Positions 29,645 through 36,056 of a stretch of DNA of 64,000 nucleotides are shown here, one piece after another (position 1 is the stretch's first letter; each line of letters starts with the position of its first letter). Below the pieces are notes generated by a model. It ran no database searches, was not told the origin of the DNA, and saw only the letters and a list, made by a program, of their open reading frames with translations. Source of the stretch: Verrucomicrobiales bacterium (lineage in GTDB: Bacteria; Verrucomicrobiota; Verrucomicrobiia; Limisphaerales; UBA9464); NCBI GenBank assembly GCA_027488845.1, contig JAIYBC010000012.1, positions 1 through 64,000 on the forward strand, in the 5' to 3' direction. A program made the translations under genes and the position numbers.

Positions 29645-30580
29645 TCAGCGACCCTTCGTGCCGCAGGCCAGCAGGGTCTCGAAACCGGGCTCCTGCTCCT
29701 CGCGGGCGACCTTCGCGATCTCGATTTCACGGAACTGCGCCGCCTCCAGCCAACGCTGCAGGTCGCTCTCCACGAAACCCAGCCAGCGGTCGCCGTACAA
29801 CTCCTTCGCCTGGTCGAACCGGTGGCGTACCAGGTCGAGGATCATCACCCTTCCGCCCGGCCTGAGGATCCGATGCGCCGCCAGGATCGCCTGCGCCGGC
29901 TCGTCGGCGTGGTGAAGGGCCTGGCTCAGGATGACGAGGTCGACGGACTCGGACTCCACCGGGGGGTTCTGCAGGTCGCCTTGGCGGAACTCGAGGTTGT
30001 CGAGACCGTTGCGCTTCGCCTTGCGGGCACCGAAGGCGACCATCTTCTCCGAGTTGTCCACCGCGATGACCCGTCGGCATCGACGGGCCAGGAGTTCCGC
30101 GAGCAACCCCTCGCCCGACCCGAGGTCCGCGACGTCCAGCGGCGGCAACATCCGCAGCAGCAGGTGCCCGAACGCCTGCCAACTCCGCCCCGGTCCGTAG
30201 CTCCGGTCGAAACGCCCCGCCACCTGGTTGAAGTAGACCTGCGCCTGTTCCTCCCGACGGGCCAGCACACGGCGCAGGTTCAATTGGTCCGCCTCCGTCT
30301 CCTTCAACTCCTTCGCCCCGCGCATCGCCAACCGCGTGAACTCGAGAGCGTCTCCGTCCGCCAGCGGGTTGAGCCGGTAGAAGGTCCTCTTGCCATCCCG
30401 CCGCGACGCCAGCAGCCCGGTCTCCGCCAATAGGCTCAGATGTGTCGAGACGCGGGACTGACCCAGGCCCGTGATCTCCTGGATCTCGTTGACCGAAAGT
30501 TCCTCCCGCTCGACCAAGGCCATGATCCGAAGACGGGTCGGATCGGCGAGGGCGCGCAGGGATTTGAGGGTTGAAGTCAT
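29645..30580 (-). CDS. ArsR-family regulator fused to a SAM-dependent methyltransferase
   Basis: The 311-residue two-domain protein has an N-terminal ArsR winged helix (about residues 1-90; MTSTLKSLRALADPTRLRIM, SVNEIQEITGLGQSRVSTHL, LLASRRDGKRTFYRL). A class I methyltransferase follows (about 130-300; VADLGSGEGLLAELLARRC, VIAVDNSEKMVAFGARKA, VDLVILSQALHHADEPAQAI). No ArsR metal-binding CVC motif is visible. In other bacteria this architecture often accompanies methionine/SAM-cycle genes; none is adjacent here. The ATG at 30580 is the family-like start. Confidence 0.83.
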   Translation of the reverse strand: MTSTLKSLRALADPTRLRIMALVEREELSVNEIQEITGLGQSRVSTHLSLLAETGLLASRRDGKRTFYRLNPLADGDALEFTRLAMRGAKELKETEADQLNLRRVLARREEQAQVYFNQVAGRFDRSYGPGRSWQAFGHLLLRMLPPLDVADLGSGEGLLAELLARRCRRVIAVDNSEKMVAFGARKAKRNGLDNLEFRQGDLQNPPVESESVDLVILSQALHHADEPAQAILAAHRILRPGGRVMILDLVRHRFDQAKELYGDRWLGFVESDLQRWLEAAQFREIEIAKVAREEQEPGFETLLACGTKGR

Positions 30581-30837
30581 CGTGACGGCCTGGGTTGCGG
30601 ACCGCCGTAGTGAACCGCCTGCAATCCACGGGAACAAGCCCACTCCCTCGGGACCCGCCATCCCCTCACAGGCTTCCAAGAGAAAAAGAAGGGTGGGCGC
30701 GGGATTCTCACTTTCGAAAACGGCTCCGGCATTGCTGGGCAGACCCACAGCACTCTGTCCGGACCGTCTTGGTTGAACGGTAAGGACACGGTGCACAGGC
30801 CCGTCACGCGGCGCCTGGATCCCAAACAATCCGTCTC

Positions 30838-33800
30838 ATGAAACGCTCGATGACCCTGCCCCGATGGGGCCGTTTCGGTTCGATCCCGACGGCGCTAATG
30901 GCCGCCGCGATCGCGGTCCACGTCTTCGGCCAACAGTCCGATCCTCCTCCCCGGGTTGCCCGACCGACCTTCGAAGGCAATCAGGTTCGGTTCGACTGGA
31001 ACTCCGGTGGAGACCTGCAGTTGGCGCCCACACCCCAAGGGCCGTGGACCACGGTCTCCGTGCCTTCCGTGCGAACCAGCACCACGAGCCTTCCCGCCCT
31101 TGAACAGGGCGCCCAGTTCTTCCGCGTCATGGAACGCGGCATCCCGGGCGAAGCCCAGCCGATCATCGAAGGCGACCCCAGGCGACCCGTCCGGATCCGC
31201 ACCGCGTTCCTCAGGAAGGCCTCCTCGGCCCGCGGCAACGCACTCATGGAGGTGACCCTTCAGCCGGGTCAGACTCCCCCGCGCCAGTTCCCGCTGCTCA
31301 ACAACGGCGACGTCCTCCAGTTCCGCGACGACGGCACCGCGGGCGACACCGCGGCCGACGACGGCGTGTTCACCGCCCCGGTGATGATCGATCTCGACGA
31401 CTTCACCGGCGCCAACCAGTTCTTCCAGTCGCTGCCGCCCGAGTTCCAGGTGCAAGGCGCCTTTACCGGCCGCGGCCTCGCCGCGGAGCACGGGCTGACC
31501 GGATTCGACTCCGGGGCCTTCGACCGCGGTGAACGCGTGCAGGTCTTCCCCTCGCCCTTCGAGGGATTCGGCTCGGGCGCCAACGCCGGCGTCGGCCCGG
31601 AGGCCCTCCGCAAGACACTGAGCCGTCAGGCAGGCCTCCCCAAGACCGTCCAGCGACTCTCGCTCACCAACATCGATTGCCGCCCATTCGTCACCACCAC
31701 CAACGTGTTCGTCCGCTTCGGCGATCCCACGCTGGTGACCAACGTGGACTGCTTTCCGGTGGTGACCTCGACCAACCTCCTCCTGCATCCCGGCAACCCG
31801 CGGACGGAGACGGTCGTGGAATGCTTCACCAACCTCGTCCAGACCAACGTGGTCGTGGGCGTGCGGCCCGCCGAGTTCCGCAACGAGGTCTTCTGCCGCA
31901 CCGTGGTCCTCGACCCCGGCGTCAGCGGCATCTTCACCAACATCTGCACCACCAATCTGGTACCCCGCATCCGTCCGGGATTCGCCACAAACATGGTCGT
32001 GACCGGGATGTCGACCGGCATCCCCTGGACCAACGTCGTGGTCTGCACCGACCTCCCAAACGGATCCGGTTCGATCGTCAAGGATCCGACCGCCCCCGGC
32101 TTCATCCCGCCGGTCACGATGTGTTTCACGAACACCCTTTTCACCAACGGCATCACCCTCCAGACCAACCTCCATCTCGTGCCCATCGAGGTGGTGGAAC
32201 TCGTCCCGGAGGTCCACTGCCAGTCCATCCTGCTTCCCGGCAGCGGCCCCATCACGACCAACATCTGCACCACCAACGCCGTGCTGGTCAGCCCGGAGCA
32301 GCCGATCTTCGAGACCCGCACCTTCCCGCTCGTCCTCTGCAGGACCAACACCCTCGTGATCGACGACTTCCCGGTCTTCACCAACGTCTTCGTCACCAAC
32401 TTCGTCTGCCGCACGAACATCCTCTCGGTCGGCGATCCCCGGCCCATCTTCGAGGAGGTGCTCATCACCAACCTCGTCTGCTTCACCAACATCACCTTCA
32501 CCAACATCACGACCGGCGGCGGCATCGTGATCACCAATTCCAACGGTGATCCGGTCGTCTTCACCAACGGCGTGCCCCCGGGCCAGGGCGGACTCAACGA
32601 GCGGCCCGCGTTCTGGAACAAGTCGCTCATGATCACCGACCTCTCCGTGGTCGAGGACCCCGCCCGCACCTTCGATCCCTGCACCGGCGCTGGAACCCGC
32701 ATGGGCGCCTGGACCTTCGGGAAGCTCATGACCGACATCTGCAACCAGCCGGTCACCGGCATCCAGCCCGGCGACTTCGCCCGGCGCTGGGTCCGCAGCT
32801 GGCAGAAGAACCAGGAGATCAACTTCGAGACGGTCCACCACCGCGAACCCGAGATCCTCGCCCAGGTCATCAACGACTGGGAGGCCGCCAGCGGCGGTCC
32901 GGACCGTCCCCTCGACCTCTCCATCGCGCCGTTCCGCCTGCTGGCGATCGTCAACCGCGTGGACCTGCGCGGCAACCCGGGCTACGGCGTGGTCAACGGC
33001 GACGACCCGTGCAATCCGTCGAACGTGGGCGGTGAAGGCCGCTTCGTGTTCTGTCTCATCCCGAACGCCTTCAGCGGCGGTCGCGGCGGCAGCCAACCGC
33101 CCTCCGGCTACGGTGGCGGTGGCGGCGGCGGCAACACCAACAACGTGTGCGACGCCTCCCAGTTCACCGTCATCTTCGAATACGGCGTCCCCAAGCGCAC
33201 CTGCCAGGAGATCAAGGAATACGGAACCGAGTGGTACAACCTGAGCCGGATGTCCTTCGGTCCCGCGTTCAACTCCGCCCTGCAGCACATCACCGAGCAG
33301 TTCACCGCGGCCGGCGCCGATCCGTCCCGCAAGCCGAACCAGAGCGCCCTGAGCCAGCTCCGCGCCAACGAGCTGCTCCGCGAGCCCTGGGAGATGCGCG
33401 AATGGCGGATCTTCTCCAACGACAGCGACGCCGGATGGCTCCGCCAGGTCACCGCGAAGCAGACCCCTGCGATCGCCCACAACCGCCAGGCCATCGTGGC
33501 CGAGTACATCCTCGCGAATGCCGCGGAGGTCCAGCGCGAGACCCACGTCGTCCCGCTCCAGTGGCGGAGCCCGGGCCGCTCGATGGTGCCGTTCCTCGGC
33601 GGTTCCGCCCCGATGGCCACCGAGCAGTTCTTCTGGGACGGCCCCGCGCCGGCCGGATCGAGCCTGCCGGGCGACCTGCGGCACAAGTTCTCGCTGAACA
33701 CCTGCAACGGCTGCCACGCCGGCGAGACGGGAACGCCCTTCACCCACGTCTTCCCCCGCGTCCCGGGACAGGAGGCCCGCCTCAGCGACTTCCTCACCGG

Positions 33801-33948
33801 CGCCAACATGCCGAAGATCGATCCCGCCGACGGACGCACCCAGCGGTGGTTCTCGGACCTGAAACGCCGCGAGGACGACCTCCTGCGCCTGATCACGGAG
33901 CCCTGCTTCTTCCAGCTGTTCCGCGACCCGGCCCAGTTCATCCACTGA
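30838..33948 (+). CDS. Large exported protein with Cys/Thr-Asn repeat tract and a CxxCH motif
   Basis: The 1036-residue product was not recognised as a characterised family. It has an N-terminal signal peptide (about 1-31, ending VHVFGQ) and a beta-rich region. A calcium-like DDGTAGDTAADDGVFTA motif near residue 165 resembles choice-of-anchor domains. From about 275 to 585 runs a repeat tract with about 12 cysteines set among TN pairs (TNIDC, TNVDC, FTNICTTN twice, FVCRTN, LVCFTN). The C-terminal 450 residues look globular, with a Gly-rich loop near 760 and CNGCHAGET at 956-964, a c-type haem-like motif. It is a single gene followed by a strong terminator. Surface or periplasmic location is inferred. 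Confidence 0.7.
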   Translation: MKRSMTLPRWGRFGSIPTALMAAAIAVHVFGQQSDPPPRVARPTFEGNQVRFDWNSGGDLQLAPTPQGPWTTVSVPSVRTSTTSLPALEQGAQFFRVMERGIPGEAQPIIEGDPRRPVRIRTAFLRKASSARGNALMEVTLQPGQTPPRQFPLLNNGDVLQFRDDGTAGDTAADDGVFTAPVMIDLDDFTGANQFFQSLPPEFQVQGAFTGRGLAAEHGLTGFDSGAFDRGERVQVFPSPFEGFGSGANAGVGPEALRKTLSRQAGLPKTVQRLSLTNIDCRPFVTTTNVFVRFGDPTLVTNVDCFPVVTSTNLLLHPGNPRTETVVECFTNLVQTNVVVGVRPAEFRNEVFCRTVVLDPGVSGIFTNICTTNLVPRIRPGFATNMVVTGMSTGIPWTNVVVCTDLPNGSGSIVKDPTAPGFIPPVTMCFTNTLFTNGITLQTNLHLVPIEVVELVPEVHCQSILLPGSGPITTNICTTNAVLVSPEQPIFETRTFPLVLCRTNTLVIDDFPVFTNVFVTNFVCRTNILSVGDPRPIFEEVLITNLVCFTNITFTNITTGGGIVITNSNGDPVVFTNGVPPGQGGLNERPAFWNKSLMITDLSVVEDPARTFDPCTGAGTRMGAWTFGKLMTDICNQPVTGIQPGDFARRWVRSWQKNQEINFETVHHREPEILAQVINDWEAASGGPDRPLDLSIAPFRLLAIVNRVDLRGNPGYGVVNGDDPCNPSNVGGEGRFVFCLIPNAFSGGRGGSQPPSGYGGGGGGGNTNNVCDASQFTVIFEYGVPKRTCQEIKEYGTEWYNLSRMSFGPAFNSALQHITEQFTAAGADPSRKPNQSALSQLRANELLREPWEMREWRIFSNDSDAGWLRQVTAKQTPAIAHNRQAIVAEYILANAAEVQRETHVVPLQWRSPGRSMVPFLGGSAPMATEQFFWDGPAPAGSSLPGDLRHKFSLNTCNGCHAGETGTPFTHVFPRVPGQEARLSDFLTGANMPKIDPADGRTQRWFSDLKRREDDLLRLITEPCFFQLFRDPAQFIH

Positions 33949-34139: not shown

Positions 34140-36056
34140 ATGCCGGACTGGACCTACAGAACACTGCTGCGGCCGATCCTGTTTTCCATGCCCGCGGGAA
34201 CGGCCCATCGGATGGCCTTGCGCTCTCTGGGCACCTTGATTCGGATGCCGCTGGGCCACCGGGTTCTGGAGTTCTTCGGCCACATGCAACCGGACCGCCG
34301 AGCGGCCTACCAGGTCCGCGGGATGGAGTTCCTCAGTCGAACCGCAATCGGATCGGGGCTGGATCCCGCAGGCGAGGCCTTGGGTTCGTTTCGCCGCTTC
34401 GGGGTCGCGGTGGTCGAGGTCGGACCGCTGGAAGTTCGTCCTCCAGGCGAATCCCCGATGATGACGAGAGTGACGCCCAACGGTTGCAGCCTGCGTTGCA
34501 ATCGGCTGGATCCCTCCTCGCTCGTCCAGCGGATGGAACCGACGTTCGCCTCCTTGGCACAGGTCTGGTTGCGCATCGAGGCCGGTTTCCCGCTCCCGCT
34601 CATGGAGGGGACACTGAAGCGGCTCGGCACGAGGGTTTCCGGCATCACCCTCTCCGGCTGGGAGGCCACTGGGACCTCGGATCGGATCGCACTGGCCCAA
34701 TCGTTTCGGGACCTACGCCTTCCATGGATGCTGAGCGTCGGGGCGGATCCGGCCGCTGCCTTGGGCACAGTTGCGGTCCAGGATGCCGTTCGTCATGGAG
34801 CTGTCGGCGTTTGGTTCCGCTCGGACTCACGACAAGCCGACGGCTCGGTCCGCGTGAAGGCCACGGACCTCCCATCCCTGACCCACTATGTCGGGCGACT
34901 GAGAAACGAGTTCGGTCCGGAGTTCATCCTCGTGGCCGGCGGAGCCAGGGACGTGGGGGAATCGTTGGCCTTGTGCGAATCCGGAGCCGATCTGGTCGGC
35001 CTCGAGTTCGGCATGGTGTTCAGCGGCCCCGGCCTGCCGAAGCGGGTCAACGAGGCGTTGCTGTCGGTCACCCCGACCTCATCATGTTCCGCTGACGATT
35101 CGCCGGAACAGCCGGGATCCATGGCGTGGACCTGGGGCCTGCTCCTTGGAGTGTCGATGGTGTTGGGCGGCCTTCTCGCCATTGGCATCGCCAGCACACG
35201 CGTCGTCCTGCCCTACGACGAGGCGTTCTGTGGAATGGACCTGGAGCAACTGAAGGCGCTCAACCCACGGCTGCTGCCGTTCCTTTCCCACGACCGTGTT
35301 ACGCTGGCCGGGACGATGCTGAGCGCCGGGGTGCTCTACACCGGACTGGCCTGGCATGGAATCCGTCGGGGACTCCACTGGGCCAAGGTCGCCCTCGTCG
35401 TTTCCGCACTCAGCGGATTCTTCAGCTTCTTTCTGTTCCTCGGTTTCGGCTACTTCGATCCATTCCACGCCTTCGTCACCGCGGTCCTCTTCCAGTTCCT
35501 GCTGCTGCTCATCCACAGTCCGATCGCCAAGCCGTCGGATCCCGGGCCGCCTGAGATCGAGGAGAACGCCGCGTGGATCGCCGGCCTATGGGGGCAACTC
35601 CTGATGGTGACCCTGGGGATCGGACTCGTGGTCGCTGGAGCCGTCATCAGCCTGGTCGGCGCCGGACCGGTTTTGGTCAGGGAAGACCTGGAGTTCCTTG
35701 CCACCACCCGGGAGGCCCTCCTGGGATCGGGTCGTCGCCTGATGCCCCTGATAGCCCACGACCGCGCAAGCCTGGGCGGGATGTTGATCGCCTGCGGCCT
35801 CGGGGTCTGGCTGACGGCTCAATGGGGGTTCCGGATCGGTCGCAGTTGGCTTTGGTGGACGCTGGCCTTGGCGGGAACCCCGGCGTTCGTTGCCGCCATC
35901 GGCATCCATCTGATCGTCGGTTACTCGGACCCACTCCACCTCGCCCCGGCGATCGGAGGCGCGGTCTGGTTCGGTGTCGCACTGGGTTTGTCCCGGAAAT
36001 GGCTTTGTGGCCCGAGGCTGGCGGCAGGGACGGCGTTTTCTTCGGCCCCGAAGTGA
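34140..36056 (+). CDS. PyrD-like domain fused to a duplicated polytopic membrane domain
   Basis: The 638-residue product has two parts. Residues about 1-315 resemble class 2 dihydroorotate dehydrogenase: YRTLLRPILFSMPAGTAHRM at the start, GSGLDPAGEALGSFRRFGVA, VVEVGPLEVRPPGE and a late GGARDVGESLALCESGADLV segment. The expected NTSSPNT-like catalytic region is not recognisable. Residues about 327-630 are hydrophobic with two internal repeats, each with a PxxxHDRxxLxG start (LPFLSHDRVTLAG near 379; MPLIAHDRASLGG near 535) and a GYxDPxH end (GYFDPFH near 437; GYSDPLH near 595). It may be a non-catalytic sensor or an unusual redox enzyme. The ATG at 34140 is preferred over a TTG 48 bases upstream. 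Confidence 0.68.
   Translation: MPDWTYRTLLRPILFSMPAGTAHRMALRSLGTLIRMPLGHRVLEFFGHMQPDRRAAYQVRGMEFLSRTAIGSGLDPAGEALGSFRRFGVAVVEVGPLEVRPPGESPMMTRVTPNGCSLRCNRLDPSSLVQRMEPTFASLAQVWLRIEAGFPLPLMEGTLKRLGTRVSGITLSGWEATGTSDRIALAQSFRDLRLPWMLSVGADPAAALGTVAVQDAVRHGAVGVWFRSDSRQADGSVRVKATDLPSLTHYVGRLRNEFGPEFILVAGGARDVGESLALCESGADLVGLEFGMVFSGPGLPKRVNEALLSVTPTSSCSADDSPEQPGSMAWTWGLLLGVSMVLGGLLAIGIASTRVVLPYDEAFCGMDLEQLKALNPRLLPFLSHDRVTLAGTMLSAGVLYTGLAWHGIRRGLHWAKVALVVSALSGFFSFFLFLGFGYFDPFHAFVTAVLFQFLLLLIHSPIAKPSDPGPPEIEENAAWIAGLWGQLLMVTLGIGLVVAGAVISLVGAGPVLVREDLEFLATTREALLGSGRRLMPLIAHDRASLGGMLIACGLGVWLTAQWGFRIGRSWLWWTLALAGTPAFVAAIGIHLIVGYSDPLHLAPAIGGAVWFGVALGLSRKWLCGPRLAAGTAFSSAPK

Follow-up and report, generated by a model that had tools for sequence, protein, structure and literature searches.

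A degenerate dihydroorotate dehydrogenase-like domain fused to a duplicated membrane domain in a Verrucomicrobiales bacterium

The gene described here lies on the forward strand, at 34140..36056, of a 64,000-nucleotide stretch of Verrucomicrobiales DNA (hereafter called the window). It is a single open frame running from an ATG at 34140 to a stop codon ending at 36056, and it encodes 638 amino acids beginning MPDWTY. We prefer this ATG to the upstream TTG of the open reading frame list because PDWxY directly after the start is common to all 12 of the fused N halves compared. The protein has a PyrD (dihydroorotate dehydrogenase)-like N half of 314 residues and a C-terminal membrane half. The motifs quoted in an earlier note on this sequence (GSGLDPAGEAL, HDR and GYxDPxH) are all present in the frame and NTSSPNT is absent, as that note had said.

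Both neighbouring genes are on the same strand, one encoding a 1036-residue protein without a Pfam match and the other a nucleoside/H+ symporter. The gene for the 1036-residue protein is also found upstream of the fused gene in G012, a genome of the same genus. In the window this upstream protein (30838-33948) has many TN/CxTN repeats, a haem-c-like CNGCH motif towards its end, and a choice-of-anchor X match just above cut-off (26.5 versus 25 bits). On the reverse strand (29645-30829) lies an ArsR-type regulator fused to a methyltransferase.

The N half has no Pfam match. The NCBIfam models for quinone-dependent PyrD match it weakly, mostly in two stretches at its ends (residues 5-101 at the N-terminal end); the best is NF003652 (1.2e-18, 67.5 bits, short of its curated cut-off of 267), and TIGR01036 gives 35 bits, short of its cut-off of 200. 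A profile of 11 fused N halves nevertheless matched a profile of 22 canonical PyrDs at 99.9% (E 2e-31; reversed control 0.6%), and the class 2 PyrD ancestry suggested for this half is borne out. The canonical set comprised the 20 loci from relatives, of 28 loci tried, that passed a filter for the motifs NxSSPNx and G[VI]GGI, with E. coli K-12 PyrD and the window genome's own gene added to them; seven loci stayed out, at least two of these (L007 and L011) evident PyrDs.

We can place the similarity more precisely by comparing pieces of the profile of 12 fused members, for which reversed controls reached at most 2.2%. Residues 1-107 (34140..34460) correspond to the N-terminal helices of class 2 PyrD and its first strand region, with residues 1-60 matching at 94.8% (E 5e-8) and residues 61-107 at 97.7%; by the alignment of residues 1-60, the membrane-associating helices are retained. 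Within this end, GSGLDPAGEAL (residues 71-81, 34350..34382) is the counterpart of AGLDKxGE, with proline in the lysine column. Residues 251-314 (34890..35081) match at 98.0% (E 1.8e-13) and represent the last PyrD strands, including GG...GADLVGLEFGMVFSGPGLP at residues 267-300 and ending in GPGLPKRVNEALL plus a few more residues. The intervening residues 108-250 (34461..34889), a diverged middle of what would once have been the barrel, show no significant PyrD similarity alone (9% with 11 members, 1.8% with the eight long members only). The PyrD layout claimed in the earlier note thus stands for residues 1-107 and 251-314 and is unsupported for 108-250 taken alone. For a complete alpha/beta barrel, the ends match and the middle does not by itself, and the AlphaFold model is of low confidence. 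In the G501 relative, a PyrD model matches residues 2-346 in one stretch (8.7e-27, below cut-off). The whole N half is probably PyrD-derived, which for the middle of the window protein is something we infer.

The fused family has its own conservation pattern. Cut at the same point, the N half varies from 187 to 335 residues across fused members, the shortest being the Mycobacterium member with only about 187 residues ahead of the membrane part; 26 positions are shared by 11 or all 12 members. The signature GPGLPKRVNEA (35025..35057) has G296, P297, G298 and R302 in 12/12 members and L299, K301, N304 and E305 in 11/12. Relative to class 2 PyrD (TIGR01036, NF003652, PF01180), then, the window protein has homologous N-terminal helices, first strand region and last strands, but it is shorter, its active-site residues are changed, it is fused to a membrane domain, and it occurs in addition to a canonical PyrD.

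The active site is where the two kinds of protein part company. We scored ten E. coli PyrD positions from a list of our own choosing (K66, N111, N139, N172, S175, N177, K217, N246, T247 and S267), which we take to serve FMN binding, orotate binding or catalysis. Nine of them are kept in 0/11 fused relatives and the tenth, S175, in one, G506, which is not the window; the earlier note's reading that the active site is lost agrees with this. All ten are kept in 22/22 canonical PyrDs, 20 of these rows having been selected with a motif that spans N172-N177. The middle of the fused rows has frequent gaps (10/11 at T247 and 4/11 at N111), and the N139 column is arginine in 11/11. Some other columns persist: D65 in 10/11 fused rows, glycines 296 and 297 of the former phosphate-site loop in 9/11 and 10/11 and, in the same stretches as the scored positions, for example N116 in the window and G012 and G268 in four rows. 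Because the active-site positions are changed in the fused rows, dihydroorotate oxidation by the fused protein is very unlikely; with its loop glycines kept, the N half may still bind some ligand.

Most genomes with the fused gene have a PyrD elsewhere. A separate full-length PyrD above the NF003652 cut-off is present in 11 of 12 such genomes, and PF01180 matches strongly in the same 11 (in G529 split into two pieces). The twelfth, G012, has no PyrD over the NF003652 cut-off and is listed as 88% complete; the two plasmid records with fused genes have none over the cut-off on the plasmid sequence itself. The search for a canonical pyrD that had been recommended for the window genome found a separate full-length gene, so pyrimidine auxotrophy should not depend on the fused gene. 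The extra PyrD domain of the fused protein is, to judge from its residues, very probably dead.

The membrane half is built from two copies of one unit. Module 1 (residues 333-462, 35136..35525) and module 2 (residues 484-619, 35589..35996) each have four predicted helices, and a comparison of the two parts on either side of residue 481 gives a match of 99.8% (E 9e-29, 141 columns), as the earlier note had proposed from the hydrophobic repeats. Reversed controls of this pair stayed at 4.0 and 5.1%. Comparison of a module with its own reverse gave 27 and 48%, a noise level to bear in mind, and the halves of CtaA, our positive control, matched each other at 97.6%. The C half is a predicted eight-helix domain formed by tandem duplication of a four-helix unit, the helix count coming from hydropathy and weak models.

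Each module carries the same conserved motifs. In module 1, HDR (residues 384-386, 35289..35297) sits within PFLSHDRVTLAG at the start of helix 2, predicted outside, and GYFDPFH (residues 437-443, 35448..35468) ends in the invariant H443. In module 2, HDR (residues 540-542, 35757..35765) sits within PLIAHDRASLGG; H590 (35907..35909), an additional conserved histidine, lies at the outer end of helix 7; and GYSDPLH occupies residues 594-600 (35919..35939). Invariant in 18 rows are A347, D360, F381, H384, D385, R386, G391, Y400 and F427, and likewise H443, L450, G500, I503, G507, D516, A539 and H540. Over 19 untruncated rows, both HDRs, H443, H590 and the GY of module 2 are invariant and H600 is present in at least 90%. 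The family-wide conservation expected of HDR and GYxDPxH is therefore real, and a putative metal, haem or quinone site at the His/Asp motifs is possible.

The charge distribution suggests how this domain is oriented. Over 23 rows, lysine and arginine number 263 in predicted inside segments and 102 in outside segments of similar total length; the outside count omits the arginines of the two HDR motifs, worth about 45 more. Even with these added, the N terminus is predicted to be inside and the D, HDR and H motifs outside. AlphaFold models had mean pLDDT values of 42.1 for the full protein (modelled with one relative) and 49.1 for the membrane half alone, too low for a fold search.

The membrane half falls outside every family in the libraries that we searched. 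It has no Pfam, NCBIfam or PDB sequence match; Pfam and NCBIfam searches with 19 members gave only single-member matches, the best 0.013 and 0.025, respectively, and a PDB profile search returned RNA polymerase alone, at E 0.25 or worse. We considered CtaA (COX15, PF02628), DoxX (for the four-helix module) and cytochrome b561/Ni_hydr_CYTB as relatives and rejected all three: profile similarity was 0.3-1.3% for CtaA, whole or by module, 0.1-0.2% for DoxX and 0.1-0.2% for the b561 type, the last with a profile from only 8 sequences. The comparison profiles were made from 28/30 CtaA, 19/20 DoxX and 8/10 b561-type loci tried, picked by hydrophobic reading frames. Among the literature matches listed, we saw no description of a fusion of PyrD to a membrane domain.

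Relatives of the membrane half are thinly spread. In overlapping genome samples, matches occur in 5/387 genomes of the phylum, in 12/384 of the class (one of these through an internally deleted G449 copy only), in 14/293 of the order, counting rows that reach into the membrane part, plus one weak partial, and in 4/223 of a second order plus two weak partials; a tally of 123 for the order consists mostly of PyrD ends. Plasmid records add fused genes from Cytobacillus spongiae (WP_233811857.1, annotated dihydroorotate dehydrogenase) and Mycobacterium branderi (WP_083132801.1, annotated hypothetical). Both proteins have the fused architecture and motifs of the window's and fall on the same side of the tree; they differ in N-half length (284 and 187 residues, respectively, against 314) and in lying on plasmid records. 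Among viral contigs, 84 pattern matches included no relative. The fusion of a PyrD-like half to a membrane half recurs with the same architecture in at least three phyla.

Stand-alone relatives (for example, L036 and L005) have a homologous duplicated membrane domain with the same motifs but lack the PyrD-like half, lie on the other side of the tree and have conserved neighbours including an FA_desaturase gene. In an unrooted tree of 23 rows, the 12 rows labelled fused are split from the 11 stand-alone rows by a 100/100 branch. Two of the fused labels need qualification: G547 begins at a contig edge, where the fusion is not directly visible, and in G529 no more of the N half is visible than its end. 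Left out of both the alignment (A5) and the tree were G565, which is truncated where its contig ends, G012 (N half only) and G449 (internally deleted). A single origin of the fusion fits the tree, and the patchy spread would fit transfer between lineages.

The two sides of the tree also have different neighbourhoods. A homologous FA_desaturase-family gene adjoins the stand-alone members in 8/11 loci (in G598 as a fragment at the contig end, in G026 with its frame split), and an FAD_binding_3 monooxygenase lies beside them in 5/11 (a fragment in G026, on the opposite strand in G103). The desaturase-like gene is missing at G189, G733 and G584, where the G733 flank is 0.5 kb on one side. No homologue of this desaturase was found at any of 14 fused loci, five of which have less than 0.4 kb of flank on one side. 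The contrast of 8/11 stand-alone with 0/12 fused loci gives p 0.0003 by Fisher test, counting related genomes as independent although three of the eight desaturase loci are one genus, and without counting a desaturase of M. branderi. That gene, an acyl-CoA desaturase (PF00487; L040, 11480-12628), lies about 4.7 kb downstream of the fused gene on the M. branderi plasmid. It is barely similar to the cassette desaturase (E 0.002) and is possibly an echo of the stand-alone cassette.

The fused genes have no neighbour in common across genera, except a prepilin-like gene in G469, G506 and the window. Within one genus, a cupin and one further protein recur in two fused loci. In that genus, too, a PQQ dehydrogenase gene adjoins the fused gene in G469 and G506 and is two genes away in G529 (loci L111, L113 and L121 for G469, G506 and G529); the G506 copy carries a cytochrome c domain. 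This neighbour is possibly a quinone link.

Selection appears to have acted unevenly on the two halves. Nei-Gojobori dN/dS between the window and G012, for the N half only (309 codons), is 0.51, indicating little constraint. Between G469 and G506 it is 0.15 for the N half and 0.07 for the membrane half, and between the window and G536 it is 0.29 and 0.25; dS exceeds 1.5 in both pairs, so that the ratios are rough. In the G469/G506 pair, where dS is saturated, the membrane half is under the stronger purifying selection.

We propose that the fused protein combines a working membrane half with a non-catalytic PyrD remnant, an explanation to which, taken whole, we give about an even chance. The N half would be a duplicated class 2 PyrD that has lost its catalytic and flavin/orotate residues and kept both ends of its fold. 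In class 2 PyrD the N-terminal helices are in contact with the membrane and the quinone; at the other end, the last PyrD strands would lead into the membrane part. The N half would lie inside, and two matching conserved Asp/His/Arg clusters would face outwards from the eight-helix domain. We take the membrane half to be the working part because it is better conserved and is found on its own. Its His/Asp clusters may hold a metal, haem or quinone, with which it would carry out redox chemistry or modify lipids. The PyrD remnant would serve in the cytoplasm for docking or regulation, a role that it probably still has because its ends and the PDWxY and GPGLxKRxNE signatures are kept.

The chemistry of the membrane half and the role of the remnant are a guess that we hold only tentatively. 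No known family ties the membrane half to a chemistry. Weak hints of redox or lipid chemistry come from the desaturase cassette and from the outer His/Asp clusters, but for the fused protein the desaturase clue counts against it because the cassette belongs to the stand-alone clade. In a more ambitious and rather improbable form of the proposal, this would be a new redox or lipid-modifying membrane family with two outward His/Asp sites, with a desaturase and a flavin monooxygenase as partners of one branch and with a second branch that captured a quinone-linked PyrD as a dead partner still lending its membrane or quinone site.

Other explanations deserve consideration. The PyrD remnant could be a sensor whose ligand (a quinone, a nucleotide or another molecule) controls the membrane half. 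Such a role would account for conservation that is specific to the family and unlike that of PyrD, namely PDWxY, the arginine that replaces N139 throughout and KRxNE, and for the retention of the fusion in three phyla; yet the N half is variable in length and weakly constrained, and the ligand is putative, so we think this unlikely. Alternatively, the N half could be a passenger in decay, useful at most for membrane targeting. Its lineage-dependent length, down to that of the Mycobacterium member, and the high dN/dS of the window/G012 pair are what decay would produce, but the 26 conserved positions and the low ratio in G469/G506 (saturated dS again) are not, and we doubt this explanation as well.

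A membrane half that is a haem protein acting like heme A synthase (CtaA/COX15) is less probable again. CtaA, like the membrane half as predicted, consists of two repeats of a four-helix unit; it has eight helices with two histidines in each repeat, and its histidine spacing in B. subtilis is 63/62 and 156, against 59/60 and 156 in the membrane half. Nevertheless, no sequence-profile similarity to CtaA is detectable, whole or by module. That the protein is an active flavoenzyme, whose PyrD-like barrel carries FMN and delivers electrons to a quinone or haem in the membrane half, is very improbable. The former phosphate-loop glycines and a GP near the end are mostly kept, as are the N-terminal helices, but the scored side chains are lost almost without exception, the Mycobacterium member lacks the length for a complete barrel and the stand-alone relatives do without the N half; the working flavin barrel envisaged in the earlier note is not supported by this evidence. 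A frameshift or assembly error joining two genes found no supporting point and has a negligible probability: unless every one of them was misassembled, it is ruled out by the relatives from three phyla that share both the fusion and the motifs, and the G012 ortholog is, as far as its contig reaches (residues 1-309), 89% identical.

The preferred reading, a working membrane half with a dead PyrD remnant, would mean that, in a family spread across phyla, an enzyme of core metabolism has become a pseudoenzyme domain attached to an integral membrane protein; annotation labels at least one fused member dihydroorotate dehydrogenase. The stand-alone form of the membrane half, for its part, marks a small desaturase cassette that is genetically testable.

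Two short relatives of the fused gene also appear. The G449 copy (L061, 1318-1860) is a 181-residue frame that starts GMPDWF and runs through module 1 to its HDR and then continues from the HDR of module 2. It looks like the product of recombination between the repeats; a genuine deletion would explain it, as would a collapse in assembly. On a Mycobacterium intracellulare plasmid (NZ_CP012886.2; L110, 4001-4225), there is a short hypothetical gene, apparently a fragment, whose match to the M. branderi fused protein (67%) is confined to residues 1-61 of that protein.
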